From Pseudoalteromonas distincta (GTDB lineage: Bacteria; Pseudomonadota; Gammaproteobacteria; Enterobacterales; Alteromonadaceae): a stretch of 64,000 nucleotides of DNA. Both the position numbers and the translations under genes were made by a program. Below the pieces are notes generated by a model. The model saw only the letters and a program-made list of their open reading frames with translations, was not told the DNA's origin and did not search any database. Each line of letters begins with the position of its first letter. The first letter of the stretch is position 1. The DNA lies in NCBI RefSeq assembly GCF_000814675.1, contig NZ_JWIG01000001.1, positions 694,471-758,470 on the forward strand, given 5' to 3'. Below, piece by piece: positions 11,176 to 64,000 of the stretch.

Positions 11176-11820
11176 TTAGTTTGTGGTGGCTAGCTTGGCT
11201 TGGTAGGTCTTCACTTTATTATTAATTACCTTGCCATTAGGGCGAACTTTTTGAGCTAACAGCATTAATTGCAATGCTTTTTTCAAATCTGTACTTTCAA
11301 GCCTCATAGCTTCATCACGAATAAAATCCACATTAAGCGGATCAGTTAAATCACTATCTTTAATATTATGTATATCTAAACGCGGCGCTTTTTGGGGTTG
11401 TTTGTTCTTTATATTAAAAAACGAAAATAAATGGTTTGATATGCTTTCTAAGCGCTTTTCGTCAAGCGCATATAAGCTATTAGTTATAGCCTCTGCTAAG
11501 TTTGGCTCGCCCGTAACTTGTAGCTCATCGTTTTTTAGCGCGTTAATAATCACTTGTTTATCATTTAAGCTCATTGCTACATTAAGCTTAGTTTTTATTT
11601 CCGCGCTTACTTTACGCAACTTAGTAGCTTCAAAACCTGCATCGCCATAGCTTACAAACCAGCTTTTTTTTATATCAGTCACGTTTAGCTTAACAACTTG
11701 ACCTTTTAAGTTACCCAAAGGCGCACTTAAAAATAAATAATTTAACGCCTTGCACAAAGCTTTGTTTTGAAGTGTTTTAGGTATTAACCTAAGCGAGGTC
11801 GTAATCAGAGTTTTTTTCAT
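11176..11820 (-). CDS. SCP2-like (UbiT/UbiJ-type) domain protein with C-terminal helical module
   Basis: 214 residues. The N-terminal ~130 residues (SLRLIPKTLQNKALCKALNY, LKGQVVKLNVTDIKKSWFVS, LQVTGEPNLAEAITN) resemble the sterol-carrier-protein-2 fold of UbiT/YhbT, including the basic first helix, the middle GxxVxLxVTD strand pair and the late GE-L-A motif. SCP2 domains bind lipids such as isoprenoids. Residues ~165-212 are the shared helical module (RDEAMRLESTDLKKALQ, VRPNGKVI). It sits between array 2b and the sulfotransferase-TPR gene. In a capsule locus it could hold the lipid-linked chain, but this is inference. The similarity was judged by eye. Confidence 0.5.
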   Translation of the reverse strand: MKKTLITTSLRLIPKTLQNKALCKALNYLFLSAPLGNLKGQVVKLNVTDIKKSWFVSYGDAGFEATKLRKVSAEIKTKLNVAMSLNDKQVIINALKNDELQVTGEPNLAEAITNSLYALDEKRLESISNHLFSFFNIKNKQPQKAPRLDIHNIKDSDLTDPLNVDFIRDEAMRLESTDLKKALQLMLLAQKVRPNGKVINNKVKTYQAKLATTN

Positions 11821-45801: not shown

Positions 45802-48480
45802 TCACAAACTTCCAATAGCAGCGACAGCCACACCTAACTGATAAAGAATCTGCGTTGCTGTGCTCCAAAGCGTTAGCTTATCCATGTGCCCTGCATCCAT
45901 TGGTATTACTATTGTGTCACCGGGTTCTAACTGTTCAGCATTATTAGCTGCAAACCAGCCACCTGTACTTGGTATTTTCACTGAACCATTGGCTTTAATA
46001 ATGTAAATTCTATCTTCAGCAGCACGCTCTTTAAGGCCACCACTTAGCGCAATATAATCATCAACACTAACACCTGATTTATAAAGATGTGATGTTGAGT
46101 AGTTAACTTCACCTATTACACTGATTGAATCGCGCTTACTTGGTACATAAAGTGTATCGCCATCTTGTAATACTAAGTTTTGTTGATTATTTACAATTAA
46201 AGGTAAGTCAATTACTAAACGCCCTACAGCTTCAACACTTGCGAGGTCGTTTAACAGCATGTTCATTTCTTCATAAGAAAGTGTGCTGCTACTCACCGAG
46301 TTTTGGAAGCTTTTAGAAGCTATATCGCGGCGAAGCTCTGTAGATAAACGCGCTAGTTGTTTTTGTTCTTGTTCTTTAATTGATGTACGGGTAAATACAG
46401 CTGCTTTTTGCTCTGCAAATTGTGAAAAACCACCCGCGCGTTCCAGTAATTCAGTTAGCGTTTCACCTCGGCGTATCGTGTACGTACCTGGAAATTTAAG
46501 CTCACCTTTTAATTCTACTTTTACGTTTTCTTGCCAGTTTGGAATAGCGAAAACGTTTATGCTGTCTTTACTTTGTAACGTAATATTACTTTGAAGATCG
46601 CCCTTCATGGCGCTTTCAAGATCAAATCGTAAGTGTTCTATTTTAGAACCATCGCTGGCTACAATACGTGTAATTTCAGCTTGTTTTACGTAGGCAGACT
46701 CCAATAAACCACCGGCTGCAGTTATTAAGTCTTTTACCTCACCACCAATCATTAGTGGATAAATACCAGGGAAAGTAACATTCCCGCTGATTTCAACTAA
46801 TTGCATTGCTTGTTGCACTGATGCTTGCTGTTTAAATTTAGCAATAATCGGCGCTAATAAGTTATGGCGGCTAAATAATGCGTAATCTTCAGGTTTGAGT
46901 TCTTGGTCTTCTTCTTCTTTTGCTTTGCGTTTAGAAATTTCAGCAATTGTTAGTATTTTATTGTCTTCAAGAACAAGCTCTTCGTCTTCTTGATTAACAC
47001 CAATATATTTTTCGAACTCTTTTTGCTCAAACTTGTGCCATTGCTCTGCTTTTTGTTGCTGCTCTTGTTGCTCTTGGCTAAGGGCCATATTTGCTAGAGC
47101 TGATTGCTCTGCTTCTTTTTCTTCAAAACGACTAAATACAACTATCTTGTCATTAGCTTTAAGTTGTAAGTTGTTTTCAGGATTTTTAATAATCGCTTGA
47201 GCAACGTCGAACTGATGCGCTTCTATATCACCGTTTACATTTATTTCGCGGATTACGAGGCCGTAGCTTAAATCGGCTTGCGGTAGTAGGTCACCGCGTA
47301 TAGATTTAAGTACATCTGAAATACGCTTGCCTTGGTGCCATTGATAATTACCTGGGCGTGCTACTGCACCAATTAAGCTAATTGAATTTTGATATTGCGA
47401 GCTAACTGAATTAAAGCGAATACGGTCGCCATCTTGCGGGATATAGTTAATTTGTGGTTTTGAAAAATCGACCGAGAGTACTTCTTTACGGTCGAAGTTG
47501 AAGCGCTCTACCACTGCATTTTTAGCATAGGCATTTGGTTTGAGGCCTCCGGCCATTGCTAATAACTGCTTAGCAGATTCACCTTTTTTAAGTTCAAAAA
47601 TAGCGGGACGTTTAACTGCACCTTCAACTTTTACTTGAGCGCCAACTGATGGTATAAATACGACATCACCCGGCTTTAATACGATATCGTTGCTGCTATC
47701 GCCTTTAATAAGTAAGTCATAAAGGTCAAAATTTGCTACAACCTTGCCTGCGCGTTTAACTTGAATATTACGTAGAGAAGCAATATCAGACACACCACCA
47801 CTTACAAATAATGCGTGCGAAACGGTTGTTAATGATGAAACACTGTAGCTACCAGGCTTGTAAGCCTCACCTAGCACTAAAATACGCATGCTACGAAGCT
47901 GACCAAGTGATACAAACGCTTTTACACCTATTACCTCTTGCTCTACTTTTACTTTTATTAGTTCTTTAATTTCAGCAAAGGTTAAACCAGCCACTTCCAC
48001 AGGGCTTAAGTCTGGAATACTAATACGTCCTTCACGGTCAACTATAACTTCAAAACTTTCACTTTCTTTACCGTAAAAGTTTATTTTTAATTGATCGCCA
48101 GGGCCCACAATATATGTATCTGGTACTGCGGCATTTTCGCTTGGCATAAACGTAGTAGGTTCACCTGCAAACAACTCATAGCCATATGGCTTAAGTTCGT
48201 CTATTTTTGGTTTAAAGCGCTCTTCATCTGTAAGCTCTTCTTTTTCAGGCTCGGTACGCTCACCAATACTACTTTGCTGCTGTGTATTATTTTGAGTATT
48301 AGATTGGTTTGCACCAGTGATCGTTGATATATCAACACCATACTGTTTTGCTAGCGCTTCTTGTTGAGCTTTTGGTAGCTTTTTAAACTGCTCAAGTTGA
48401 GACGCTGTTGGCGTAAAAGCCAAAGTACTAAAACTACAAAGTAGAATAAAAGCACTAATAAATTGTGTAAAAACTTTCAC
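45802..48480 (-). CDS. wza: Large Wza-like polysaccharide export protein with several SLBB domains
   Basis: About 892 residues, more than twice the size of E. coli Wza. A signal peptide (KVFTQFISAFILLCSFSTLA) precedes TYIVGPGDQLKINFYGK (polysaccharide-export domain). At least five SLBB-like units follow (ILVLGEAYKPGSYS, VKVEGAVKRPAIFEL, ISLIGAVARPGNYQW, VEISGNVTFPGIYPL, VELKGELKFPGTYTI, ISVIGEVNYSTSHLY). A charged Gln/Glu-rich segment lies near residues 480-530. Such long forms are usual in Alteromonadales and Vibrio. TTG 48510 is in frame; GTG 48480 starts a clean signal peptide, with AGGG 12 bases upstream. It is the first gene of the Wzy-type locus. Confidence 0.87.
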   Translation of the reverse strand: MKVFTQFISAFILLCSFSTLAFTPTASQLEQFKKLPKAQQEALAKQYGVDISTITGANQSNTQNNTQQQSSIGERTEPEKEELTDEERFKPKIDELKPYGYELFAGEPTTFMPSENAAVPDTYIVGPGDQLKINFYGKESESFEVIVDREGRISIPDLSPVEVAGLTFAEIKELIKVKVEQEVIGVKAFVSLGQLRSMRILVLGEAYKPGSYSVSSLTTVSHALFVSGGVSDIASLRNIQVKRAGKVVANFDLYDLLIKGDSSNDIVLKPGDVVFIPSVGAQVKVEGAVKRPAIFELKKGESAKQLLAMAGGLKPNAYAKNAVVERFNFDRKEVLSVDFSKPQINYIPQDGDRIRFNSVSSQYQNSISLIGAVARPGNYQWHQGKRISDVLKSIRGDLLPQADLSYGLVIREINVNGDIEAHQFDVAQAIIKNPENNLQLKANDKIVVFSRFEEKEAEQSALANMALSQEQQEQQQKAEQWHKFEQKEFEKYIGVNQEDEELVLEDNKILTIAEISKRKAKEEEDQELKPEDYALFSRHNLLAPIIAKFKQQASVQQAMQLVEISGNVTFPGIYPLMIGGEVKDLITAAGGLLESAYVKQAEITRIVASDGSKIEHLRFDLESAMKGDLQSNITLQSKDSINVFAIPNWQENVKVELKGELKFPGTYTIRRGETLTELLERAGGFSQFAEQKAAVFTRTSIKEQEQKQLARLSTELRRDIASKSFQNSVSSSTLSYEEMNMLLNDLASVEAVGRLVIDLPLIVNNQQNLVLQDGDTLYVPSKRDSISVIGEVNYSTSHLYKSGVSVDDYIALSGGLKERAAEDRIYIIKANGSVKIPSTGGWFAANNAEQLEPGDTIVIPMDAGHMDKLTLWSTATQILYQLGVAVAAIGSL

Positions 48481-48547
48481 GAGTAGGCATATCCCTAGGT
48501 CTACAACCAAAATTGGCCGCTATAATACCTTAATTATAAGCAAATAA

Positions 48548-51183: not shown

Positions 51184-51316
51184 CTCATTACTTATCTACA
51201 ATTAATTAACCAATGTGACTGTATTAACTATACTTAGCTACAAAAAGTGGTAGGTTTCTAATGTTGGCATCACTTTTTACAAAACATCAAACTTCTACTG
51301 GGATATAAAATTAAGC

Positions 51317-52642
51317 ATGATTAAACAGGTTTTAGGAAATTTACTGTGTAGTTGTTTAGCTGTAATGAGCTTTAACTCATTGGCTCAAAGCAATGATGAA
51401 TTCAATAAGCTATTGATTGAGCTTCAAAAATTAGTTTCTGAAAAAAAATACACTCAGGCTTATCAAAAAAGTAATAGCGAATATCAGTACCTAGGCGAAC
51501 CCGTATACGACTTTTTATTAGGGGTCAGTGCACTTAAAACAGGGCATGCGGCGCCAGCTGTATTTGCCTTTGAACGCGTGGTTGAAAATAATCCTAGATG
51601 GTATGAAGCTCGCTTATACTTAGTTCGCGCTTATTTAACAGTTAATAATTTACCTGCTGCCGATACTCAAGCTTTAATACTAATTAACTCACCTGACACA
51701 CCTAATAATATAAAGTCTTCAGCACAGTCATTGCTAGAAACTGCTGCACTTAAGCAACAAGAGGCTGGACGCTCTTATAAACAAAATATTGAGCTTGCGC
51801 TTGGCGTAGATGGCAACGTAAACGCAGGTACTGCAGAAAATACGATTATAATTCCTAATATTGGTGAATTTTTGTTATCGCCAGAAAGTAAAAGTACGCA
51901 GGACAACTATGCACGACTTAATTACAGAGGAAAGTACTCTCACCCTATTGACCAAAAAAGCTTAATCACTTTAAGTATTGATACCGGGTGGTACAAGTTT
52001 GATGAACTCAGTCAATACGATCGTGTAAATGCGAACATTAATGCCGCCTATCAATATAAACAAAATGACATAAGTTGGTTTGCACGAGTTGCTACCACTC
52101 CACTGATGCTTGACGGTAAACTTTATCGTACTGAATCAGCTTTAACGGCCGGAGCTAATTTTACGCTAAATAAACAAGTTAATTTATTTAGCTCTTTGAC
52201 TGCGGGTGTTTTAAACAATAGATTTGATGAAAAGCTCGATAACTCATTTTATGCGATAAATGCAGGTGCTAGCTATGCAGCTAAAAATTGGTTTCAAAGC
52301 TTAAGCATTAACGCTAAAAGCGAGGAAGCTGACATTACAGAGGGTGAATTTAATAGCCGTAATATTACGAGCTTGTACTACCAAGTGAACACTCAGTTGG
52401 CTCAACATTGGCAGTTGTTATCTCTTGCTGGATACCAATGGATTAATTATAAAGATGATCACCCTTTATTTTTACAAGAACGTGCCGATAACCTCTTTAT
52501 GCTCTCAACTTCTGTTCGCTACTTAGTTAATCGCGATTTAGCCATACAGTTGGCTGCCAACTATCAAGATAAATCCAGTAATATTTCTTTATTCGAATAT
52601 GACCGTTTAGATATAAATTTAAGCGCTTCTTACTCATTTTAA
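51317..52642 (+). CDS. TPR and beta-barrel outer-membrane protein
   Basis: 441 residues with a signal peptide ending about SFNSLAQS. Residues ~25-150 are tetratricopeptide-like (VYDFLLGVSALKTGHAAPAV, FAFERVVENNPRWYEARLYL). From ~160 to the end the sequence alternates like a beta-barrel (NIELALGVDGNVNAG, YARLNYRGKYSHPI, SLSINAKSE, ending INLSASYSF with a C-terminal Phe). The layout resembles outer-membrane proteins next to FecR and adhesin genes and may help to export or anchor the giant lipoprotein encoded two genes later. It starts a run of six plus-strand genes. Confidence 0.7.
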   Translation: MIKQVLGNLLCSCLAVMSFNSLAQSNDEFNKLLIELQKLVSEKKYTQAYQKSNSEYQYLGEPVYDFLLGVSALKTGHAAPAVFAFERVVENNPRWYEARLYLVRAYLTVNNLPAADTQALILINSPDTPNNIKSSAQSLLETAALKQQEAGRSYKQNIELALGVDGNVNAGTAENTIIIPNIGEFLLSPESKSTQDNYARLNYRGKYSHPIDQKSLITLSIDTGWYKFDELSQYDRVNANINAAYQYKQNDISWFARVATTPLMLDGKLYRTESALTAGANFTLNKQVNLFSSLTAGVLNNRFDEKLDNSFYAINAGASYAAKNWFQSLSINAKSEEADITEGEFNSRNITSLYYQVNTQLAQHWQLLSLAGYQWINYKDDHPLFLQERADNLFMLSTSVRYLVNRDLAIQLAANYQDKSSNISLFEYDRLDINLSASYSF

Positions 52643-52654
52643 TTTAAGGTATTT

Positions 52655-53776
52655 ATGAAACATTTACTCCCTGTAATTACCACTTTACTTTGTGTAAGTT
52701 TTTATACACAAGCAAACGACCCTGCTGGTAAAACTATTTTAGCACGAGGCTCTGTACTCGCGCTTGATGGAAGCAATGAACAACAACGACAATTGCAGCG
52801 CAGAGATACTGTTTTTGGCATAGATCGTATTACGACTGGAGAGAAAAGCAAAGCGCAATTTTCGATGTTGGATGGTGGTTTAATAGCCTTAAAAGAAAAC
52901 TCAGAATTAAATATTGCTAACTACGAATTTAATGACAATACCCAACAGGGCTCTGCTTCTATTGAGTTACTTAAAGGCGGTTTGCGCTCTATTTCCGGCG
53001 CAATTAAAAAAAATGGCGGCTCTTATAGTGTAAAAACTCCCGTAGGCTCTATTGGCATACGCGGAACGCATTTTGAAGTTCAGCTGGTTAAAGGCGATGT
53101 ATTTTTAGCGGTATGGGATGGCGCAATAGATTTAACGTTAGAAAATAATAACGTGGTTTCTTTGGGTGATAACGAGGCATTTTCGTTTGCACAAATTACA
53201 GCCACTGGTGAAGTATTTAAAACGACACGTGCGGCACGTGTGTTTGATCAAAATATAGTAGCAATTGATCCTAAAGGCGACAACGAAGAAGAAACTGAGC
53301 AAGCATCGGTAACTGAAGTTGAAGTAAATGCTTTTGAAGCAGATACAGGTGTTATGGATATATATTCTGAACAACAATTTCAAACTGTTAGCAGCGCATC
53401 TTTAGTCGATCAAATAGCTCAGCGCCAAGGTGTATTTAACTATGAGGCATCAAGCTTTAATGTAAATTCGAGTGTGGGTGCTGTTACTGACTTTGCTATG
53501 ACTATGGCAGTTGATTTTGATAATGGCACCGTGCCTGATGGCGAAATTAGTTTTAATGACGCCGGTGGAAATTGGTATGCAGCTTACAGCGGCTTAATAA
53601 ATTTAAGCGAACTTGAGCTGGCCGTTACATTTGCATCCCATGGTAACAATAAAGCCGAGGGCGATGTTGATGCAATATTTTTGAATGACTTAGACAACAT
53701 TACTGGCAACTTTAATCTTAACGAAATAAATAATCCTGATGTAAATGCTAGCGGTTCTTTTAAATTAGAACCATAA
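52655..53776 (+). CDS. Secreted FecR-domain protein
   Basis: 373 residues with a signal peptide (LLPVITTLLCVSFYTQANDP). Residues ~30-165 form a FecR domain: RDTVFGIDRITTGEKSKAQF, LKENSELNIANYEF, and YSVKTPVGSIGIRGTHFEVQ followed by VWDGAIDL. The last ~200 residues are acidic and without a known domain. In this class FecR domains sit in the periplasm or at the surface, not as sigma regulators; no sigma factor or TonB receptor is nearby. It lies 12 bases after the barrel gene and 39 before the adhesin-like gene. Confidence 0.85.
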   Translation: MKHLLPVITTLLCVSFYTQANDPAGKTILARGSVLALDGSNEQQRQLQRRDTVFGIDRITTGEKSKAQFSMLDGGLIALKENSELNIANYEFNDNTQQGSASIELLKGGLRSISGAIKKNGGSYSVKTPVGSIGIRGTHFEVQLVKGDVFLAVWDGAIDLTLENNNVVSLGDNEAFSFAQITATGEVFKTTRAARVFDQNIVAIDPKGDNEEETEQASVTEVEVNAFEADTGVMDIYSEQQFQTVSSASLVDQIAQRQGVFNYEASSFNVNSSVGAVTDFAMTMAVDFDNGTVPDGEISFNDAGGNWYAAYSGLINLSELELAVTFASHGNNKAEGDVDAIFLNDLDNITGNFNLNEINNPDVNASGSFKLEP

Positions 53777-53815
53777 ACACATTGGATACAAAGCTTTTAT
53801 TATGGAGTATTTAAA

Positions 53816-56800
53816 ATGACAGCAAAAAATATATTTTTGCTTGGTTCTATGGTGTTTTTGTTAAGTGCCTGTGGAGGCTCAGAAGAAAGCCCCACTCAAG
53901 AGGCAATACAATCACCTACGGCTGAAGTAATACCGCCAACGGTGACTAGCTATATTAATTTGGCTGGTGTTATAGCGAGTAATCAAACCAAGAGTACAAA
54001 AGTTTTAGGTGCTGTCACTTCAAGTAGAGGAGTTGTTGGAGCAAGTTTAGCTAATACTCGCGCTAATATTGTTTTTTCACAAACAAACGACACCGTACAA
54101 GGTAATGTTTCTTTTTTGCTTGAAGCTTCGGATACTGATGGCATTGCTGAAGTTAATTTAGTACTCCCTAGCGTTAATAAAAGCATATCACTTTGTTCTT
54201 CTGATTGTGGTGTTGACTACGAAAAGTCAATTATAGGCCTCAGTCCTGCGCTTTATGGCGTAACTCCAGGGGAAATACGCCTTGAAATATGGATAACTGA
54301 CACTTTAAATAATCAAGTACTTGCTGATGCAATCACTTTTAACTGGCAACCATATCAAATTGAAGGTGTTACAGCACAACGAGACGAAGATAATATTAAT
54401 CTTTCGTGGCAGGCCAACCCCGAACTTAATCGTTACAACGTTTATATTGCAACTCAAGCTGGAGTCTCATCTACTAATATTAATGAATTAGAGAATGGGC
54501 AACAATTTTTAAGTATTCAAGATACTGCATTAAGCATTACCGAGTCACTTACAGATAAAAGTTATCAAGTACTTATTACCGGTGTTGATGGCAGTGGTGA
54601 AAGTGGTTTTGCTAATATAATAAACATAGCGCCAATGGGTGGAGAGCTTGCATTTGCACCAGAGGCAAATGCCGATCAGTTTCAGATAAATGAAGATCAA
54701 ACTCTGCAAGGTAACGTACTAACAAACGATACGAATCAATACAGTGGCGATTTACGTGTAAATGCAGATGCATTAATTCTACCGCAGCATGGCACTCTTA
54801 ATATAAATGAAAATGGGGATTTTACTTATATCCCTATTGCAAACTTTAATGGTGAAGATGCCTTTAGCTATCAAGTTGCTAACGAGCTAGGTATGACTGA
54901 CACCGCAGTTGTAGAGATAACCATTTTAGCTGTTAACGACGCTCCTATTGCGCTTGATAATACTTACAGCATTACAAACAATGGAACCTTAGTTGTCCTA
55001 TCGCCAGGCTTACTTATAAACGATAGCGATATAGACTTAGATGACTTAACTGTTGATACAACGCCGGTTAGCGAACCAACAAGAGGACAGTTAACCCTTT
55101 TTGATAATGGTGGCTTTGAATACCAAGGCGAGCAAAATATGCAAGGCCAAGACAGCTTTCAGTATAGAGTTGTTGATGCACAAGGTGCTCAGGCTATTGC
55201 AAATGTAACCATTGTAAGTTCAAACACTAACGTAGCCCCTGTAACAAAAAATGATAGCTATAGTTTAAGCGAAGATGAAACACTTGTGGTTACAGCAGCC
55301 AATGGTGTGCTTAGTAACGATACTGACCCAAATAATGACAGTTTTTCAGTTGATGAAACGTTTATGGTGGCACCCACACATGGTCAACTATTATTAGCAA
55401 CTGACGGCAGCTTTAGTTATGTGCCGGATGCTAATTTTAATGGTGTTGATCAATTTCAATACCAAGCTATAGACTCATTAGGTGCAACCTCTACAGCCAC
55501 AGTAACTTTAGTAATAAACAGCGAACCCGATAACCCTGTTGCACAAAATGATGCCTATCAATTTAGCAAAAATAAACTATTTGAAGTAACAGTACAAAAT
55601 GGCTTATTAATTAACGACTTTAATATTGAGGCTGGCGATTTATCTGTTAATACCACGGCAATTAATGCAACTCAAAATGGCGAACTTACATTAAAAGTTG
55701 ATGGCTCATTTACCTATCAGCCAGACTTAGGTTTTGTTGGTGTAGATAGCTTTACCTATTCAATTTCAAATGAGCAAGGCTTAACTGCAACAGCTCAAGT
55801 AACCTTAAGTGAAAGCGGCGTTAATACTTTTCCACAAGCCAATGACGATCAATATACGTTAGACGAAGACAGCTCTGCATCTTTATTCGATGTGCTAGCT
55901 AACGACACTGATGCAGATGGCGATACAATAAGTATTTCTAATATAGAAAATACTGCTGGTGAAGCGACTATTGTCGCCGGAAAAATACAGTTTACTCCAC
56001 CAGCAAATTTTTCAGGTGAAATAGTACTAACTTACACCATTACTGATGGTTATAGCACTGGTAATGAAGGTATAAACGACAGAACAGCAAGTGTGACGAT
56101 TACTGTTACACCCGTTAATGATGCCCCGACTGCAAATGCTGATTCAGCAACGATGAACGAAGATGCTCCTGCGTTATTAGTTAACGTATTAGCTAACGAC
56201 TCCGACATTGACGGCGATACTCTTGTGATAACAGCAGCTACTGCAGATAGAGGTTCTGCATCTGTTGTTGATAATAAAATCCAATATACGCCTGCTGCTA
56301 ATACAAATGGAACAGCAATTATTAACTACACAATAAGTGATGGTAACGGCGGTACTGCAACTATTAACTTAACAATTACTATTATTCCCGTAAACGATGC
56401 TCCAATAGCAAACGCAGACTCAGCTACAATAGATGAAGATGCAGCGCCAATACTAATAAACGTATTAGCCAATGACTCAGACGTGGATGGCGACAGCCTT
56501 ACCATAAGCGCAGCATCAGCTGATATTGGCTCTGTATCAGTGGTTGGCAATCAAATTCAATATACACCGGCAGCCGACGACAACGGCTTAGCAACAGTTA
56601 CTTATACTGTAAGCGATAGCAACGGCGGCGCCAGTACAGCAACGTTAACTATCACTATTACACCTATAAATGATGCTCCAATAGCAAATGCTGACACGGC
56701 AACTATGGATGAAGATGCAGCGCCAATACTAATAAACGTATTAGCCAATGACTCAGATGAGGATGGCGACAGCCTTACCATAAGCGCAGTCTCAGCTGAT

Positions 56801-59800
56801 ATTGGCTCAGTCTCAGTGGTTGGCAATCAAATTCAATACACACCGGCAGCCGACGACAACGGCTCAGCAACAGTTACTTATACTGTAAGCGATAGCAACG
56901 GCGGTGCCAGTACAACAACGTTAACTATCACTATTACACCTGTAAATGATGCTCCAATAGCAAATGCTGACACGGCAACGATGGATGAAGATGCAGTACC
57001 GCTACTCATTGATGTGTTGATTAATGATATAGACGCTGATAGTGATAGCCTAAGCATAACAGCAGCGTCAGCCGATAGCGGTTCAGTATCCGTTGTTGAT
57101 AACAAACTACAGTACACACCGGCTGCAAATACCAACGGTATTGTTGTTGTCAGTTATACTGTTGATGATGGGAATAACGCTACAGATACTGGTAGTTTGT
57201 CAATTACGATTGCTCCTATTAACGATGCTCCAGTTGCGTCAAACCAAGGTTTTAATATTAGGGAAAACGCAACCGATGGCGACACTATTGGGACTGTTAG
57301 TGCCTCAGACATTGAGAACCAAAATTTAAGTTACACCCTGCTCAGTGGTGCCCCCATATTCGAAATAAATAATGATTCTGGCTTATTAACTGTAAAAGGA
57401 GAAAGCCCGTTTGATTTTGAAACAACTCCTCAGTACATATTGAGCCTAGCTATTACTGATGATGGTACGCCTAACGAAACAACTACTATTAATATAATAA
57501 TTGATATCACTGATGATACGGAGCCTCTAGTTCCTGTTGAAGATGAAACATTTGGTCGCCCTATAACAGGTGAACTTGATCTTTCTGGAGTTTTTTCAAG
57601 CGGTGAATTTAATGACAGTATTGAGCTAAATAATAACCTTTACTTTGTAGGTTTTAGTAATAACAGCGACAAAGATATCGTTATTGCATCGTATACAACG
57701 AGTGGTGTGATAAATACAGCATTTAATGGTGATGGCGTTAAAGTATTAGATTTAGAAAATGATGAACAAGCAACAGCTATCATCTCTGATGGTACAAGCC
57801 TCTTTGTTGCTTACACTAGTTTTGATGGCACAAATACCGAAGCATGTTTGTTGAAAATGAATACCGCTGGCGTATTAAGTAATAACTCTGGAGATAATAA
57901 TTCAGGTATTCACTGTACCGCATTAGCAAGCACCCTCGTGATTAATGACCTTGAATTTAGCGACAATAAAATTCAGGCTGTTGGTAAGTCATTTAATGGT
58001 AACGACAGCGATAGCTTATGGATAAAATACGATATATCTACGCTCGCTTATGAAGCCGGAAGCCCTAAAATTGTCGATGTGAGCGGCGCTAGTAGAGATG
58101 ACGAAGCGTTTGCTATTAAAAACTTTAATAGCTCTGATCTTATGGTTGTTGGCAGTGTCACAAGTGCAACTGGTGATAAAGACGTACTTATTCGTTATTT
58201 AATTTCTGATGGTGAAAACAATGGAAGTTTTAATGGTAGCGCAGCATTATCGCTCGACTTGTCCAAGAATAATAAAGATGACGAACTATTTGCAATTGGC
58301 GGCGCTAAAAACACCGACTTTACAGCTTTTGTAGGTGGTTACATAACTCGTAATAGTGGTGAAAAAGAAGCCGTGGTTTTGGCTATTGATAAAACGGGTA
58401 CTCTTATAACGAGTTTTGGTGATGCAGGTACTGCTATTTACGATATTGATAGTGATAGTGGTAGTGGTGATGGTGGCGCGAGTGTAACCGGCGTAAAATA
58501 TGAGCAAATTAAAAATGGAATTACGTTATCTGGCACTACTGGAGTTTCTGCTAGTGAAAAACTATTTTCTGCCCGTATTTTAATGTCTGATGGTTCACTT
58601 GATAGTACTTATGGTGCATCAGGTATTAATATTATTTCAGGTATCAATGGTAAGCAATTTGCCAAATCGGCAACTATAGATGCGAATGATACAGTATGGG
58701 TATCGGGTGTTATTGACGACTCAACCACTAAACCATTTGTTGCAGCAATTGACGAGCAAGCCACATTATTCAGTAACTTTGCAGACGTTGGTTATCTTGC
58801 TTTTGATACTATAAGCGCAGAATCTGACGATCAATCAATGCACGTTTTACAACTGAGCAATGGCCCTCAGGTCGGTAAGTATATTCTTGCATCAACGGCT
58901 AAATCGAACTCAATTACTAAGTTAGTATTAACACGCTTTACGAGTACGGGTGCTATAGATACTAGCTTTAGCGAAAGTGGTCATAAAGAAATTGCCATAG
59001 ATTTGAGCGTACCTAATATAGCGTTGGTTGAACACAATAGCGGCAGCTTATTTATTGCGGGATCTAAAAGCAAAACTGACGGTGAAGAGGGCTTTATAGC
59101 TAAAGTTGATCAAAATGGTGATTTAGATACCTCATTCGCCAGTGATGGTATTTACTCTACTTCTATTTCAGGTGCTGAAAAGCTTAACTTAACTGATTTA
59201 GCACTACATGATGGCAACGTTGTAGCAGTTGGCTCTGTAGTTATAGCCGATACTCCTAGTTCGTTTATCATGATGCTAGATTCTGACGGTACACTTGACG
59301 ATGACTTTGGTAGCAATGGAAAAATTATAGGAACACCTTTTGAATATTATGAAAGTGTTTTTATCAGTGATGATAGTATTTTTATTGGTGGTAAATCTGT
59401 ATCAGGTGCCAGTTCAGAATTAATAGCATTAAAGCTCGACTCTGACGGTGAGCAAACCTACAAATACATAGGTGAAACAACCATTGATTCCGAGAATAAA
59501 ATGGTAAAAGTATTAGTCGACGAATCAAATAAATTATATTTAATTGCAAACGTTGTAGATACGCCTAATAAAGCTAGTATTACGCGATTACTCGCATCTG
59601 GAGTAATTGATGACAGCTACCCGTTAGACCAATATACATTAGCTTCAACGGGAGATACCGAAGTAAAAAGTGCCGTTTTTGATACCAACAACAATATTGT
59701 TTTAGTTGGTATGGGCAACAATAAAGGCATGTTAGCGCGCATTTTAACTGACGGTACTTTGGATAATACGTTTGGAGCCAGTGGTGCCGGCTTTTATGAA

Positions 59801-59944
59801 GCAAGCCAATGTGTCAGTACACATGTGTTTACTTCAATCATCCTGCAAAATGATACCCAAGTTGTTGTAAGTAGCACCTGTAATGACACTAACTCTAACA
59901 ATGTTAGTATTTCTAAATTCAATTTTGAAGCAGATGGAGCTTAG
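53816..59944 (+). CDS. Giant lipoprotein with cadherin-like repeats and a delta-60-like propeller
   Basis: 2042 residues. Lipobox LLSACGGS with Cys19. Residues ~180-270 resemble a fibronectin type III domain (DNINLSWQANPELNRYNVYI). From ~275 to ~1140 there are nine Ig/cadherin-like units of the NDxxxxxEDxxxxxxVLxNDxD type (for example FDVLANDTDADGD), then one true cadherin-like unit (FNIRENATDGDTIG, FDFETTPQYILSLAI). From ~1185 to the end are repeats of the delta-60 sort (LDTSFASDGIYS, LDDDFGSNGKI, LDNTFGASGAGF), likely a beta-propeller. The calcium-binding DxD-rich loops suit adhesion or matrix binding. It is probably anchored in the outer membrane. No C-terminal type I secretion signal is seen. 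Confidence 0.85.
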   Translation: MTAKNIFLLGSMVFLLSACGGSEESPTQEAIQSPTAEVIPPTVTSYINLAGVIASNQTKSTKVLGAVTSSRGVVGASLANTRANIVFSQTNDTVQGNVSFLLEASDTDGIAEVNLVLPSVNKSISLCSSDCGVDYEKSIIGLSPALYGVTPGEIRLEIWITDTLNNQVLADAITFNWQPYQIEGVTAQRDEDNINLSWQANPELNRYNVYIATQAGVSSTNINELENGQQFLSIQDTALSITESLTDKSYQVLITGVDGSGESGFANIINIAPMGGELAFAPEANADQFQINEDQTLQGNVLTNDTNQYSGDLRVNADALILPQHGTLNINENGDFTYIPIANFNGEDAFSYQVANELGMTDTAVVEITILAVNDAPIALDNTYSITNNGTLVVLSPGLLINDSDIDLDDLTVDTTPVSEPTRGQLTLFDNGGFEYQGEQNMQGQDSFQYRVVDAQGAQAIANVTIVSSNTNVAPVTKNDSYSLSEDETLVVTAANGVLSNDTDPNNDSFSVDETFMVAPTHGQLLLATDGSFSYVPDANFNGVDQFQYQAIDSLGATSTATVTLVINSEPDNPVAQNDAYQFSKNKLFEVTVQNGLLINDFNIEAGDLSVNTTAINATQNGELTLKVDGSFTYQPDLGFVGVDSFTYSISNEQGLTATAQVTLSESGVNTFPQANDDQYTLDEDSSASLFDVLANDTDADGDTISISNIENTAGEATIVAGKIQFTPPANFSGEIVLTYTITDGYSTGNEGINDRTASVTITVTPVNDAPTANADSATMNEDAPALLVNVLANDSDIDGDTLVITAATADRGSASVVDNKIQYTPAANTNGTAIINYTISDGNGGTATINLTITIIPVNDAPIANADSATIDEDAAPILINVLANDSDVDGDSLTISAASADIGSVSVVGNQIQYTPAADDNGLATVTYTVSDSNGGASTATLTITITPINDAPIANADTATMDEDAAPILINVLANDSDEDGDSLTISAVSADIGSVSVVGNQIQYTPAADDNGSATVTYTVSDSNGGASTTTLTITITPVNDAPIANADTATMDEDAVPLLIDVLINDIDADSDSLSITAASADSGSVSVVDNKLQYTPAANTNGIVVVSYTVDDGNNATDTGSLSITIAPINDAPVASNQGFNIRENATDGDTIGTVSASDIENQNLSYTLLSGAPIFEINNDSGLLTVKGESPFDFETTPQYILSLAITDDGTPNETTTINIIIDITDDTEPLVPVEDETFGRPITGELDLSGVFSSGEFNDSIELNNNLYFVGFSNNSDKDIVIASYTTSGVINTAFNGDGVKVLDLENDEQATAIISDGTSLFVAYTSFDGTNTEACLLKMNTAGVLSNNSGDNNSGIHCTALASTLVINDLEFSDNKIQAVGKSFNGNDSDSLWIKYDISTLAYEAGSPKIVDVSGASRDDEAFAIKNFNSSDLMVVGSVTSATGDKDVLIRYLISDGENNGSFNGSAALSLDLSKNNKDDELFAIGGAKNTDFTAFVGGYITRNSGEKEAVVLAIDKTGTLITSFGDAGTAIYDIDSDSGSGDGGASVTGVKYEQIKNGITLSGTTGVSASEKLFSARILMSDGSLDSTYGASGINIISGINGKQFAKSATIDANDTVWVSGVIDDSTTKPFVAAIDEQATLFSNFADVGYLAFDTISAESDDQSMHVLQLSNGPQVGKYILASTAKSNSITKLVLTRFTSTGAIDTSFSESGHKEIAIDLSVPNIALVEHNSGSLFIAGSKSKTDGEEGFIAKVDQNGDLDTSFASDGIYSTSISGAEKLNLTDLALHDGNVVAVGSVVIADTPSSFIMMLDSDGTLDDDFGSNGKIIGTPFEYYESVFISDDSIFIGGKSVSGASSELIALKLDSDGEQTYKYIGETTIDSENKMVKVLVDESNKLYLIANVVDTPNKASITRLLASGVIDDSYPLDQYTLASTGDTEVKSAVFDTNNNIVLVGMGNNKGMLARILTDGTLDNTFGASGAGFYEASQCVSTHVFTSIILQNDTQVVVSSTCNDTNSNNVSISKFNFEADGA
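56123..57226 (+). repeat. Four tandem 276-bp coding repeats in the giant lipoprotein
   Basis: Units start at 56123, 56399, 56675 and 56951, exactly 92 codons apart, each opening GAYGCYCCR (Asn-Asp-Ala-Pro). The second and third units are nearly identical at the DNA level, also at third codon positions, while units further upstream in the gene are diverged. The antisense open frames spaced 276 bp apart here are products of the repeat. Confidence 0.88.
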
Positions 59945-59953
59945 CCTTAAATT

Positions 59954-60787
59954 ATGAAAGTTGAATTTTTTGGTGTTAGAGGCTCGATGCCTTCAGCTGG
60001 AAGTAATACACACATTTTTGGGGGAAATACCTCGTGTGTGTACATTGAACAAAACAACGGTAAAGATCTTATTTTAGACTCTGGTACCGGTATTGTAGAA
60101 CTCGGTGCACGTTTACTAGAAACACAAAGTCCTATCAATATTTTGCTAACGCACAATCATTGGGATCATATTCAAGGGTTTCCTTTTTTTAAGCCTATCT
60201 ACCAGCCCAACCGCAATATAACCATTGTAGCTGGCAACGTTGATGATAAAAAAAGCCAAGATGCCATATTAAAGCAAATGAGTGGTTCGTACTTTCCTGT
60301 GTGTTATCAGGATTTACCTGCCAGCATTACGCTAAATACTGATTTATCGTCTCAAAAGCAGTTTACACTTAACGGTTTTTTGGTTTCGACAGCCCCACTG
60401 AATCACCCTGGTGGCGGTACTGCTTATTGCATTAAAGCAGATGAAAAAAAGATAGCCTACGTTACCGACAATGAGCTAAACCCGCCAGACAAGGTAAACA
60501 CAAGTATTTGCGAATGGAGCAATTTTATTGAAGGCGCCGATTTACTAATTCACGATGCTCAATTTATAGATGCAGACTTGCCTCTAAAGCATGGTTGGGG
60601 TCATAGCACCATAGATCAGGTTGCTGAGCTTGCTATAAAAGCGAGTATTAAAAATGTGATTATTATTAGCCACGATCCATCAAGAACCGATGAACAGTTA
60701 GTCGCTATAGAAAAATATTTACACACGCAGTACGCTCAACAGCTAAAAATAGAATGCGGCCGAGAAGGACGAGTTTTTGATTTTTAG
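59954..60787 (+). CDS. Metallo-beta-lactamase-fold protein
   Basis: 277 residues. KVEFFGVRGSMPSAG opens the protein, LILDSGTGIVELG follows, and LLTHNHWDHIQGFPFFKP is the zinc-binding HxHxDH-like motif (HNHWDH). APLNHPGGGTAYCI, VTDNE and IIISHDPSRTD provide the other ligands. The group is related to tRNase Z and phosphodiesterases such as PhnP, and such genes are often next to cyclase or response-regulator genes. A phosphodiesterase is likely; the substrate is unknown. It lies nine bases after the adhesin-like gene and ~20 before the cyclase. Confidence 0.85.
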   Translation: MKVEFFGVRGSMPSAGSNTHIFGGNTSCVYIEQNNGKDLILDSGTGIVELGARLLETQSPINILLTHNHWDHIQGFPFFKPIYQPNRNITIVAGNVDDKKSQDAILKQMSGSYFPVCYQDLPASITLNTDLSSQKQFTLNGFLVSTAPLNHPGGGTAYCIKADEKKIAYVTDNELNPPDKVNTSICEWSNFIEGADLLIHDAQFIDADLPLKHGWGHSTIDQVAELAIKASIKNVIIISHDPSRTDEQLVAIEKYLHTQYAQQLKIECGREGRVFDF

Positions 60788-60793
60788 TCTATC

Positions 60794-60810
60794 AAGGAGC
60801 GTTACTCATT
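60794..60810 (+). promoter_or_regulatory. Ribosome site AAGGAG with an ATT start
   Basis: AAGGAG at 60794-60799 is followed, eight bases later, by ATT at 60808-60810, which opens the cyclase frame. The last in-frame stop is TGA at 60778-60780, and no ATG, GTG or TTG occurs between it and ATG 61027. Confidence 0.6.
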
Positions 60811-63027
60811 AGCTTCTTAAAACCCATTACCTCAAAGCATTTTTTTATTGGCACTGTTATTACATTATTAATTGCATCAATAGAGTTATTTTCAACTGGG
60901 TCGCTTGCAAAGTTAGTTAACCGTGTAGAAGGTATAATATACGACTCTCGGTTATTACTGACGCTTTCAGAGACGCCTAGGCGCATAGATGAAACCGTTG
61001 TAATAATTGATATCGATGAAAAGAGCATGCAAGAACAAGGACGCTTTCCTTGGAGTCGCTCAAAATTAGCAGACCTTGTTACAAAGCTTAGCGATGCAGG
61101 TGTTATTGTTATTGCATTCGATATATTTTTTTCTGAACAGGAAGAAAACCCTGTTACAAAAATTATGTCTGAAATTCCTGATTTATCAAAAAAGTACACC
61201 ATCCCCTTTGCTGAAATTACTAAACAAGTCGATGCAGACACAAAACTAGCAAGCGCATTATCTAAAAATGATACTGTTCTTGGTTTTTTACTAATTGATG
61301 AACAACTAACTAATCAAAACTTGCCAGCTAAAAACAGTGTTGTATGGGCAAGCGAAGAGCACGCTAATTCACAAATAAACCAGTTTCCTGGTGCTATTGT
61401 AAATATTCCACAGTTACAAAATGCTGCAACGGGCACCGGCTTTATTAATGCACATATTGACGAAGATGGCTTTATACGTAAAGCAGCTCTTATAAATCGA
61501 GTTGGCGATAAGCTTTATCCGTCTTTAGCACTTGAAGTTGCTCGACTTTATACTCTTGCTGAAAACATAGAAACCCGTTCCAATAGGTTAGATGGTATAA
61601 CCTTATTCGAAGGTATAAAGTTTCAAAATAAGTGGATTCAAACTGATGAGTATGGGCAAATATTAATTCCTTACAAAGGGCGTGCGCATAGCTTTCCCTA
61701 TTATTCGGCTACCGATATTTTGACCAAAAAAATTGGTTTAGATGAATTAGAAGGCACAGTAGCCTTTATTGGTACTTCCGCCGTAGGGCTTGCTGATTTA
61801 AGATCAACACCTGTTGGTTTGCAATACCCTGGTGTGGAGGTTCATGCCAATATATTTGAAGGGTTAATGCACCCAGAGCTACTGCCATCTAAACCTAATT
61901 GGTCACAGGGAGCAAGCTTACTAATTATTGCATTGACGGGTTGCGTACTGTCGTTTTTTAGCCACGCTAAGAGCGCACGTTTTATTATTGTTTTGTCTCT
62001 TACAGTCACAAGTGTCGTTATATTTTTAAACGTTTATTTATGGTCAGTACAAAAAATTAGTTTACCTTTATTAATGCCTCTTTTACTCATCATTATATTA
62101 GCCGGTTATTACATCATTGTAGGCTCTATCGCTGAAATGAAACACAGCCGAAAAATAAAATCTATGTTTGACCAATATGTTCCTCCTGAGCGTATAAACC
62201 AAATGATACTGCAAGGTAAAAGTTTATCTCAAAAAAGTGAGCGAAAAAATATGACGGTGTTGTTTGCCGACATACGTAGCTTCACTTCACTATCAGAAAG
62301 TATGTCGCCTCATCAGTTAAGTGAATATTTAAACGAATATCTTACAGCTATTACCAAAATCATATTTGATCATCACGGAACTATTGATAAGTACGTAGGC
62401 GATATGGTGATGGCATTTTGGAATGCCCCACTGAAAGATGAAAACCACGCTCGCCATGGTGTTGAAGCCGCAATGTCTATGATCCACGGGTTAACGAAAA
62501 TAAATCAGTTATTTGCAGAAAACAACCAGCCTGCAATAAAAATAGGTATCGGTTTAAGTACTGGTGACATGAATGTAGGTGATATGGGTTCGGTTTATCG
62601 TAAAGCCTATACAGTTCTTGGTGATACTGTTAATTTAGGTGCTAGAGTAGAAAGCTTGACCAAATTTTATGGCGTAGCTATTCTTGTTACAGAAGAGACA
62701 ATGAAAAAATGCCCTCATATTTCATTTCGTTTAATAGATAAAGTGCAAGTTGTTGGTAAAACAGCTGCTGTACAGTTGTTTGAGCCTATAAACTTTACAG
62801 ATAAGCTCAATGAAGAGCAGTTAAATGAAGTTAAAAAGTCGCAGCAGGCCATGACGCTTTTTTATAATAAAAACTGGCCACAAGCACTTAGCTTATTTAA
62901 AGAACTACACAGTACAACCGTATTTAGCCCCAACATTTATGCCATTTTTATTGAACGTATTAAGGGCTCTGATTTGCAAACACTAGCTAAGGATTGGAAT
63001 GGTGCCTTCAAACATACTCAAAAGTAG
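60808..63027 (+). CDS. CHASE2-domain class III adenylate/guanylate cyclase
   Basis: 739 residues from ATT 60808. The N-terminus has a membrane helix (FFIGTVITLLIASIELF) and then a CHASE2 sensor: YDSRLLLTLSETP, VVIIDIDEKSMQEQGRFPWS, and FIGTSAVGLADLRSTPVG, VEVHANIFEGL. Three membrane helices lie at ~370-440. The cyclase domain begins MTVLFADIRSFTS (metal Asp488), with DKYVGDMVMAFWNAP (Asp532), IGIGLSTGDMNVGDMGS and YTVLGDTVNLGARVES. Both metal aspartates are present, so it should be active, most likely making cAMP. Starting at the first normal codon, ATG 61027, would remove the helix and 73 residues of the sensor, including DIDEKS. Confidence 0.85.
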   Translation: MSFLKPITSKHFFIGTVITLLIASIELFSTGSLAKLVNRVEGIIYDSRLLLTLSETPRRIDETVVIIDIDEKSMQEQGRFPWSRSKLADLVTKLSDAGVIVIAFDIFFSEQEENPVTKIMSEIPDLSKKYTIPFAEITKQVDADTKLASALSKNDTVLGFLLIDEQLTNQNLPAKNSVVWASEEHANSQINQFPGAIVNIPQLQNAATGTGFINAHIDEDGFIRKAALINRVGDKLYPSLALEVARLYTLAENIETRSNRLDGITLFEGIKFQNKWIQTDEYGQILIPYKGRAHSFPYYSATDILTKKIGLDELEGTVAFIGTSAVGLADLRSTPVGLQYPGVEVHANIFEGLMHPELLPSKPNWSQGASLLIIALTGCVLSFFSHAKSARFIIVLSLTVTSVVIFLNVYLWSVQKISLPLLMPLLLIIILAGYYIIVGSIAEMKHSRKIKSMFDQYVPPERINQMILQGKSLSQKSERKNMTVLFADIRSFTSLSESMSPHQLSEYLNEYLTAITKIIFDHHGTIDKYVGDMVMAFWNAPLKDENHARHGVEAAMSMIHGLTKINQLFAENNQPAIKIGIGLSTGDMNVGDMGSVYRKAYTVLGDTVNLGARVESLTKFYGVAILVTEETMKKCPHISFRLIDKVQVVGKTAAVQLFEPINFTDKLNEEQLNEVKKSQQAMTLFYNKNWPQALSLFKELHSTTVFSPNIYAIFIERIKGSDLQTLAKDWNGAFKHTQK

Positions 63028-64000
63028 TAAACATATGCGACAGCACATTAAAGACAAAACAAATCTTCAACACTTTATCGATATTAGCATTAGACTAACA
63101 ACCGAAAAAAACTCGTCTAAGTTACTTGATGAAATACTGCAAGTTGTAATGTCGATAGCAAATTCTGATGCTGGCAGCATTTACTCTATTACCTCAAACA
63201 AACAACTAAAGTTTGAAACAGTAATAAACAAATCATTGAATCTTTATTTAGGCGGCACATTAGGTGGTCCTGTTGATTTTCCTAATATAGATCTTTTTAT
63301 TGATGGCAAACCAAATGACACCGCTATTGTTGCGCATTCTGTTAATACAGGGGAAGTAATAAATATTCCTGACGTGTATGATGCCTTGCCTTTTGATATG
63401 AGCGCTGCACGCAAAATGGATGCTCGCACGGGTTATCGTTCTGAGTCCATGCTAACAATTCCTTTAAAAGATCATGAAGATGACATTATTGGTGTAATCC
63501 AGCTTATAAATGTAAAAGATGCGCAAAATAAAAACATTCCTTTTAGTGAAGAGCTCGTCACTCTAATTCGATCTTTTGCCTCTTTAGGCGCTATTTCACT
63601 AACTAACTCTACTTTAGTTAAAGATATGGAAGTGCTTTTTTCAACGTTTGCCGAAGCTATCGCAATGGCAATAGATGAAAAGTCTCCTCACACGGGCGGC
63701 CACTGTAAGCGGGTACCAGCACTGACGTTAATGCTTGCTGATGCAGTGCATAAAATAGATAAAGGTCCACTAGCAGATTTTATAATGAGCCCAGAGGATC
63801 GCCATGAACTAAGTGTTGCGGGATGGCTACATGACTGTGGGAAAATTGCTACTCCTGATCATATTATGGAAAAGTCGACCAAGTTAGAGACTATTTTCGA
63901 TCGCATAGAGTTTATTGATGCTAAGTTTGAAATAATTAGTCGAGATTTAGAACTCTCTTATCAGCAGCAAATTATTTCAGCAATAAAACAGAATAAGTCG
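63002..64000 (+). CDS. GAF and HD-GYP domain protein, C-terminus beyond window
   Basis: The frame is open to the window end. Residues ~30-200 form a GAF domain (SIANSDAGSIYSITSN, NIPDVYDA, TGYRSESMLTIPLKDHEDD, IIGVIQLINVKD). Then FAEAIAMAIDEKSPHTGGHC and KRVPALTLMLADAV begin an HD-GYP domain, with VAGWLHDCGKIATPDHIMEK as the metal-binding HD motif. HD-GYP proteins degrade cyclic di-GMP; the GYP part lies beyond the window. GTG 63002 has AAGGA eight bases upstream and overlaps the cyclase by 26 bases; ATG 63035 (MRQHIKDK) is the other choice and has no ribosome site. Confidence 0.82.
   Translation, partial: MPSNILKSSKHMRQHIKDKTNLQHFIDISIRLTTEKNSSKLLDEILQVVMSIANSDAGSIYSITSNKQLKFETVINKSLNLYLGGTLGGPVDFPNIDLFIDGKPNDTAIVAHSVNTGEVINIPDVYDALPFDMSAARKMDARTGYRSESMLTIPLKDHEDDIIGVIQLINVKDAQNKNIPFSEELVTLIRSFASLGAISLTNSTLVKDMEVLFSTFAEAIAMAIDEKSPHTGGHCKRVPALTLMLADAVHKIDKGPLADFIMSPEDRHELSVAGWLHDCGKIATPDHIMEKSTKLETIFDRIEFIDAKFEIISRDLELSYQQQIISAIKQNKS

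Follow-up and report, generated by a model that had tools for sequence, protein, structure and literature searches.

A conserved six-gene set of Pseudoalteromonas distincta that joins a Slam-related barrel and a FecR protein to a CHASE2 adenylate cyclase, and may form a surface-sensing unit

Six genes at the locus and their conservation

The genes described here lie at positions 51317–64000 of the window, a 64,000-nucleotide stretch of the 4.5-Mb P. distincta genome. Six open reading frames follow one another on the plus strand from 51317 to 64660, the last of which, encoding the HD-GYP protein, extends 660 nucleotides beyond the end of the window. Their Pfam domains read, in order: weak TPR and barrel, FecR, Ig/cadherin with delta-60 repeats, metallo-β-lactamase (MBL), CHASE2 with a class III cyclase, and GAF with HD.

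51317-52642, plus strand: gene 1, TPR-barrel protein, 441 aa
52655-53776, plus strand: gene 2, FecR-domain protein, 373 aa, signal peptide, PF04773 (E = 7e-17)
53393-53773, plus strand: TbpB/NHBA/fHbp-type eight-stranded barrel at the C-terminus of the FecR protein (residues 247–373)
53816-59944, plus strand: gene 3, giant lipoprotein, 2042 aa
59954-60787, plus strand: gene 4, MBL-fold hydrolase, 277 aa, PF12706 (E = 1.3e-12)
60795-60810, plus strand: AAGGAG and apparent ATT start codon of the cyclase (ATT at 60808)
60808-63027, plus strand: gene 5, CHASE2 class III adenylate cyclase, 739 aa
~60880-61944, plus strand: CHASE2 domain, PF05226 (E = 4e-58)
~62236-62766, plus strand: cyclase domain, PF00211 (E = 5e-21)
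62999-64660 (window ends at 64000), plus strand: gene 6, GAF-HD-GYP protein, 553 aa

The six co-directional frames, as well as the gaps of 12 (52642/52655), 39 (53776/53816), 9 (59944/59954) and about 20 nucleotides (MBL to cyclase), agree with the original prediction, which was made from the DNA letters alone. It also had the series end in an overlap: this holds if gene 6 begins at ATG 62999 (29 nucleotides shared with the cyclase gene), but not if ATG 63035 is used, which leaves a 7-nucleotide gap. A terminator scan showed no plus-strand terminator-like sites at the five junctions. The set is flanked by tRNA-His upstream and by a convergent aldehyde dehydrogenase gene downstream of the HD-GYP gene. 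TGTGA-N6-TAACT at 51214, ahead of the first gene, was considered as a CRP-binding site and rejected: such matches number 19 compared with 24.9 in shuffled sequences, and the orthologue alignment does not clearly show the site.

No ATG, GTG or TTG codon for the cyclase is found between the MBL stop (60787) and 61027, and its translation appears to begin at the ATT (AUU) codon. ATT occupies the same junction in the six closest orthologues (L034, L036–L040), among which L036 alone has a usual start (TTG) nearby; farther orthologues carry an ATG start that overlaps the MBL stop. AUU start codons are rare (infC is a known case), so this one may keep cyclase expression low.

Seventeen other genomes of the genus have the complete order barrel-FecR-lipoprotein-MBL-cyclase-HD, the genes overlapping or lying a few tens of bases apart, and one more genome of the genus carries its two halves on two contigs. 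These loci occupy at least two chromosomal settings. Among 79 genomes searched, the MBL and FecR proteins mostly occur together, and almost all of the genomes that carry them belong to this genus. Outside the genus, the complete order is present in Rheinheimera faecalis (L064), Rheinheimera soli (L073), Alteromonas sp. a30 (L066), Thalassomonas sp. (L089) and a gammaproteobacterial MAG (L067); it persists down to about 25–50% protein identity, with differing flanks. Two genomes (L055/L054 and L056/L052) keep the barrel, FecR, lipoprotein and cyclase genes together and have the MBL gene elsewhere, with or without HD, and L057 has MBL-HD alone. The six-gene set is a real conserved unit. The original prediction, which had placed surface proteins, a cyclase and an HD-GYP enzyme in one unit and had proposed a search for the same order in other genomes, is thus borne out within the genus and beyond it. 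Where other genomes carry MBL alone or MBL-HD, L060 has an MBL remnant with stop codons (11250-11522 onward).

A search of 369 genomes of the class with the C-terminal domain of the FecR protein yielded four more cases. Three of these (L158, L160, L161), together with L059 and L162, contain a TPR-barrel, a FecR protein of 468–1334 aa and a CHASE2 cyclase, whereas the contig of the fourth is too short. These triads come from other gammaproteobacterial families, and their genes are co-directional, divergent or convergent. On Paracoccus and Shinella plasmids (Alphaproteobacteria), the triad takes the form of three consecutive genes, the TPR protein of which weakly matches both barrel profiles. 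As the triad is found in other gene orders and in Alphaproteobacteria, the ancestral core is an exporter-like barrel, a FecR/TbpB cargo and a CHASE2 adenylate cyclase; the other three genes are add-ons that can be absent or located elsewhere, and the six-gene operon is an elaborated form.

CHASE2 is present in 154 of 274 sampled gammaproteobacterial genomes. In these 274 genomes, at least 33 of 149 CHASE2 genes among the matches listed lie less than 4 kb from a FecR gene, compared with 0.45 expected from random placement; the count, taken over best-scoring matches, is a lower bound. In two alphaproteobacterial loci (L166, L164), the FecR and CHASE2-cyclase genes have as neighbours a cyclic-nucleotide-binding protein and genes for NHLP-type bacteriocin export.

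The TPR-barrel, the FecR protein and the giant lipoprotein

The AlphaFold2 model of the TPR-barrel, built with 21 orthologues (pLDDT 90.5), consists of helices followed by 14 long strands. In a profile-profile alignment (hhalign), the family matches five bona fide Slams over its full length (393 columns, Prob 98.5, E = 1.5e-15), and the Slam (SlipAM) layout of an N-terminal TPR followed by a 14-stranded barrel is present in the window protein. As a control, 47 outer-membrane-protein-like ORFs were ranked with the Slam profile, and the operon-type barrels came out ahead of the rest with few exceptions. PF04575 (SlipAM, the Slam family) matches 6 of 21 members of the barrel family; in a search of whole genomes, the operon barrels of G045 and G008 pass its curated cut-off and several others fall just below it with full-length matches. 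The window's own barrel has no such match, which counts against a T11SS-type reading, and no Slam appears among the structural matches listed for it, which are porins, BcsC and TPR proteins, an absence that proves nothing. Gene 1 most likely encodes a distant relative of the T11SS/Slam exporters.

The protein encoded next to it has the FecR domain that had been assigned to it from the start (PF04773), and the fold of this domain matches PupR (Z 14.4). Its C-terminal 127 residues form a helix and eight strands, for which the fold matches (VIA-align) are almost exclusively NHBA, TbpB, fHbp and HphA/haemophores at Z of about 10–12 (NHBA 12.2, TbpB 11.2, HphA 10.4). Direct sequence routes to this link failed. 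PF01298 (TbpB_B_D) does not match the window's own FecR protein, a search of PDB sequences with the C-terminal domain returned nothing useful, and comparison of its profile with five local Slam cargoes gave no link; the missing PF01298 match and the failed cargo comparison count against a T11SS-type reading. The link was therefore drawn from the fold search and from sister proteins. In the sister FecR protein of L161 (12549-15668), the A4 profile, built from the window domain and its orthologues, matches residues 908–1030 and PF01298 matches residues 912–1030 (29.0 bits, cut-off 26); PF01298 matches 4 of 15 sister FecR proteins in total.

The window FecR protein thus combines two features of T11SS cargo, a signal peptide and a TbpB-type eight-stranded C-terminal barrel, and it lies downstream of a Slam-like exporter gene. 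For these reasons, the original description of a periplasmic FecR sensor falls short, and the protein is most likely a FecR-TbpB cargo that the barrel would export.

The giant lipoprotein, originally described as a repeat lipoprotein, has a lipobox (LSAC19), Ig/cadherin repeats and C-terminal delta-60 repeats that probably fold into a β-propeller. It may act as an adhesin. A second set in one genome (L162, 8604-17469) comprises a barrel, a FecR protein, a lipoprotein with PKD repeats and a PQQ-type propeller, and a CHASE2 cyclase; the combination of an Ig stalk and a terminal propeller may be a design that recurs.

Enzymes of cyclic nucleotide metabolism

The nearest solved chains to the cyclase domain of gene 5 are adenylate cyclases. 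An active class III cyclase of the adenylate type is marked by a metal-binding Asp pair, an adenine-type Lys/Thr pair and the transition-state Asn/Arg pair. All of these residues are present in gene 5, in addition to CHASE2, and the motifs FADIRSF, DKYVGD and YTVLGDTVNLGARVE are largely intact in 22 orthologues, so that the initial call of a CHASE2 protein with a cAMP-type cyclase was correct. In both Gamma- and Alphaproteobacteria, cyclases linked to the triad end in a common C-terminal tail, W(D/N)G(V/A)(Y/F)xxxxK (~62990-63024 in the window); those of L059, L160–L162, L164, L166 and L167 are among them. The tail is absent from CyaD1 and CyaK and makes a useful search handle.

The MBL fold of gene 4 had been recognised but left without a role, its similarity to phosphodiesterases (PDEs) having been missed. 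Residues H67-H69-D71-H72, H151, D172 and H240 are invariant. The protein resembles RNase Z, PhnP and a cyclic-nucleotide PDE model, which matches 21 of 23 members of the family, and it gives a weak but full-length match to YhfI (6kns), the template used for the cAMP phosphodiesterase Rv1339 (PMC9293780). Like this atypical class II PDE (PMC9293780), gene 4, a putative PDE, has the PF12706 MBL fold and metal-binding motif; the similarity between the two is low. A relative of gene 4 adjoins a CHASE2 cyclase in Ensifer, and relatives in Gemmatimonadetes lie beside a gene that reads as Crp-like, with HD-GYP relatives nearby in three loci. Two results count against a cyclic-nucleotide PDE: the score with NF041851 (atypical class II cyclic-nucleotide PDE) is 28.9 bits, the equivalog cut-off being 400, and RNase Z scores higher. 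Nevertheless, gene 4 most likely encodes a cyclic-nucleotide phosphodiesterase. The PF12706 fold, the similarity to the PDE model and YhfI, and the CHASE2 cyclase, Crp-like and HD-GYP genes that neighbour its relatives make cAMP the likeliest substrate, in which case cAMP synthesis and breakdown would be encoded side by side in the operon. A phage anti-Pycsar origin of this gene was considered and set aside: it has no phage match, and no such enzyme is found among the PDB sequence matches, an absence that proves little.

With the motifs HDCGK and HHEKLDGTGYP (HD and HHExxDGxGYP, respectively), gene 6 is an HD-GYP enzyme. It matches PmGH (4mcw, E = 3e-33) and also 5z7c, in accord with its initial description as a GAF and HD-GYP protein. 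Some HD-GYP enzymes prefer cGAMP; this one probably degrades c-di-GMP. The operon may control both second messengers.

Related systems and the function of the operon

In Sinorhizobium meliloti, external uL2 protein raises cAMP via the outer-membrane barrel NsrA and CHASE2 cyclases (PMC7529298, PMC13001267). The pSymB replicon of strain 1021 carries one CHASE2 gene and one FecR gene. The latter is an ORF of 1219 aa with FecR (85–179), TPR (~390–610) and a C-terminal region fitting the reported NsrA barrel (residues 600–1200), and it overlaps the start of the CHASE2 cyclase gene cyaK by 1 nucleotide. Judging by its size, layout and position, this ORF is very probably NsrA. NsrA-CyaK (and CyaD1/CyaD2) and our operon both place FecR, TPR and an outer-membrane barrel next door to a CHASE2 adenylate cyclase, but these parts are fused in S. 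meliloti and split over two genes here. Furthermore, no TbpB-type domain is seen in NsrA-CyaK, and its operon has no MBL, lipoprotein or HD-GYP gene.

Other known systems share further subsets of these parts. Clusters of a CHASE2 cyclase, a cAMP phosphodiesterase, a FecR outer-membrane protein and a TPR protein have been described in Campylobacterota by genome comparison; the parts of that description available to us do not mention a T11SS/TbpB link, a giant lipoprotein or an HD-GYP protein (PMC9239204). T11SS/Slam systems with TbpB-domain cargo (PMC8406197, PMC12282271) have a TPR plus 14-stranded barrel beside a gene for TbpB-type cargo, as does our operon. What sets the operon apart is the FecR domain of its cargo and the association of these genes with a CHASE2 cyclase; these two surveys contain neither FecR nor CHASE2 as a term. 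The biofilm-linked BiofilmReg operon pairs a LysM-FecR protein with a CHASE2 sensor, which is a histidine kinase and not a cyclase, and contains no exporter (PMC5192318). The parts of the operon were thus known already; the new element is a FecR-TbpB cargo tied to a CHASE2 cyclase, of which no description was found in the open-licence literature searched.

Combining these findings, we somewhat favour a model in which the operon encodes an envelope-spanning, T11SS-like surface-sensing unit that feeds cAMP and is equipped with a probable phosphodiesterase of its own as well as a c-di-GMP-type arm. The TPR-barrel would act in the outer membrane as an exporter or receptor of the T11SS/Slam kind. 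As cargo it would take the FecR protein, whose TbpB-type C-terminal barrel it would recognise, and the giant lipoprotein, with its long Ig stalk and propeller tip, may be a second cargo. The FecR part, facing the periplasm or retracting to it, would report how the surface complex stands to the adenylate cyclase in the inner membrane, whose CHASE2 domain would receive the signal. The MBL enzyme would remove the cyclic nucleotide, and the GAF-HD-GYP protein would link the unit to a cyclic dinucleotide, probably through breakdown of c-di-GMP. This model draws together the conserved order, the triad core, the Slam-homologous barrel, the TbpB-type C-terminus, the linkage of CHASE2 to FecR, the family context of the MBL protein and the NsrA precedent. 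The barrel of NsrA bears no profile similarity to that of the window (E = 0.09), which counts against it.

The same precedent, in which FecR, TPR and barrel form one protein with TPR and FecR facing the periplasm, suggests another possibility, to which we give appreciable but minor weight: the barrel, TPR and FecR parts would form a fixed NsrA-like outer-membrane receptor that exports nothing. This receptor would bind a ligand from outside and transmit the signal through the periplasm to CHASE2, and its TbpB-type domain would be no more than a structural or ligand-binding piece. The Slam-like character of the barrel over its full length argues against this, as does the domain typical of Slam cargo in its constant neighbour. 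We regard as unlikely that the barrel exports the lipoprotein and the FecR protein as an adhesin or fibre while the cyclase, MBL and HD-GYP enzymes regulate the operon and do not sense its products. The lipoprotein is indeed the largest gene, and two relatives hold barrel-FecR-lipoprotein-cyclase with MBL(-HD) elsewhere, but the cyclase stays with the barrel and FecR genes even where the lipoprotein, MBL and HD-GYP genes are missing. A chance neighbourhood of separate transcription units is very improbable, as the order persists from genus to genus although the flanks change, and the genes overlap or are separated by short gaps.

Returning to the surface-sensing unit, a bolder and rather doubtful extension is that a T11SS-like exporter and a FecR-TbpB cargo together provide CHASE2 adenylate cyclases with their physical input: the CHASE2 domain would read whether the cargo has stayed in the periplasm or is exposed at the cell surface, and export or ligand capture at the surface would be converted directly to cAMP. 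FecR domains would then be the general protein ligand of CHASE2. Earlier work on another S. meliloti FecR protein, SMc02177, saw no need for it in signal perception (PMC5498481), which calls for caution here. CHASE2 is a widespread sensor domain whose input has been described as unknown (PMC5192318), and the parts of this operon make that input testable: the class-wide linkage to FecR, the adjacent T11SS-type exporter and cargo, and the S. meliloti precedent open it to direct binding and genetics experiments. A surface-sensing unit of this kind would also take T11SS cargo beyond nutrient capture and adhesion into signalling.

The operon is adjoined by a long minus-strand cluster, which ends with the gene for a polysaccharide-export-like protein (45802-48510) in which repeated SLBB-type segments can be made out by eye; exopolysaccharide could be a target of the operon's cyclic-nucleotide signals.
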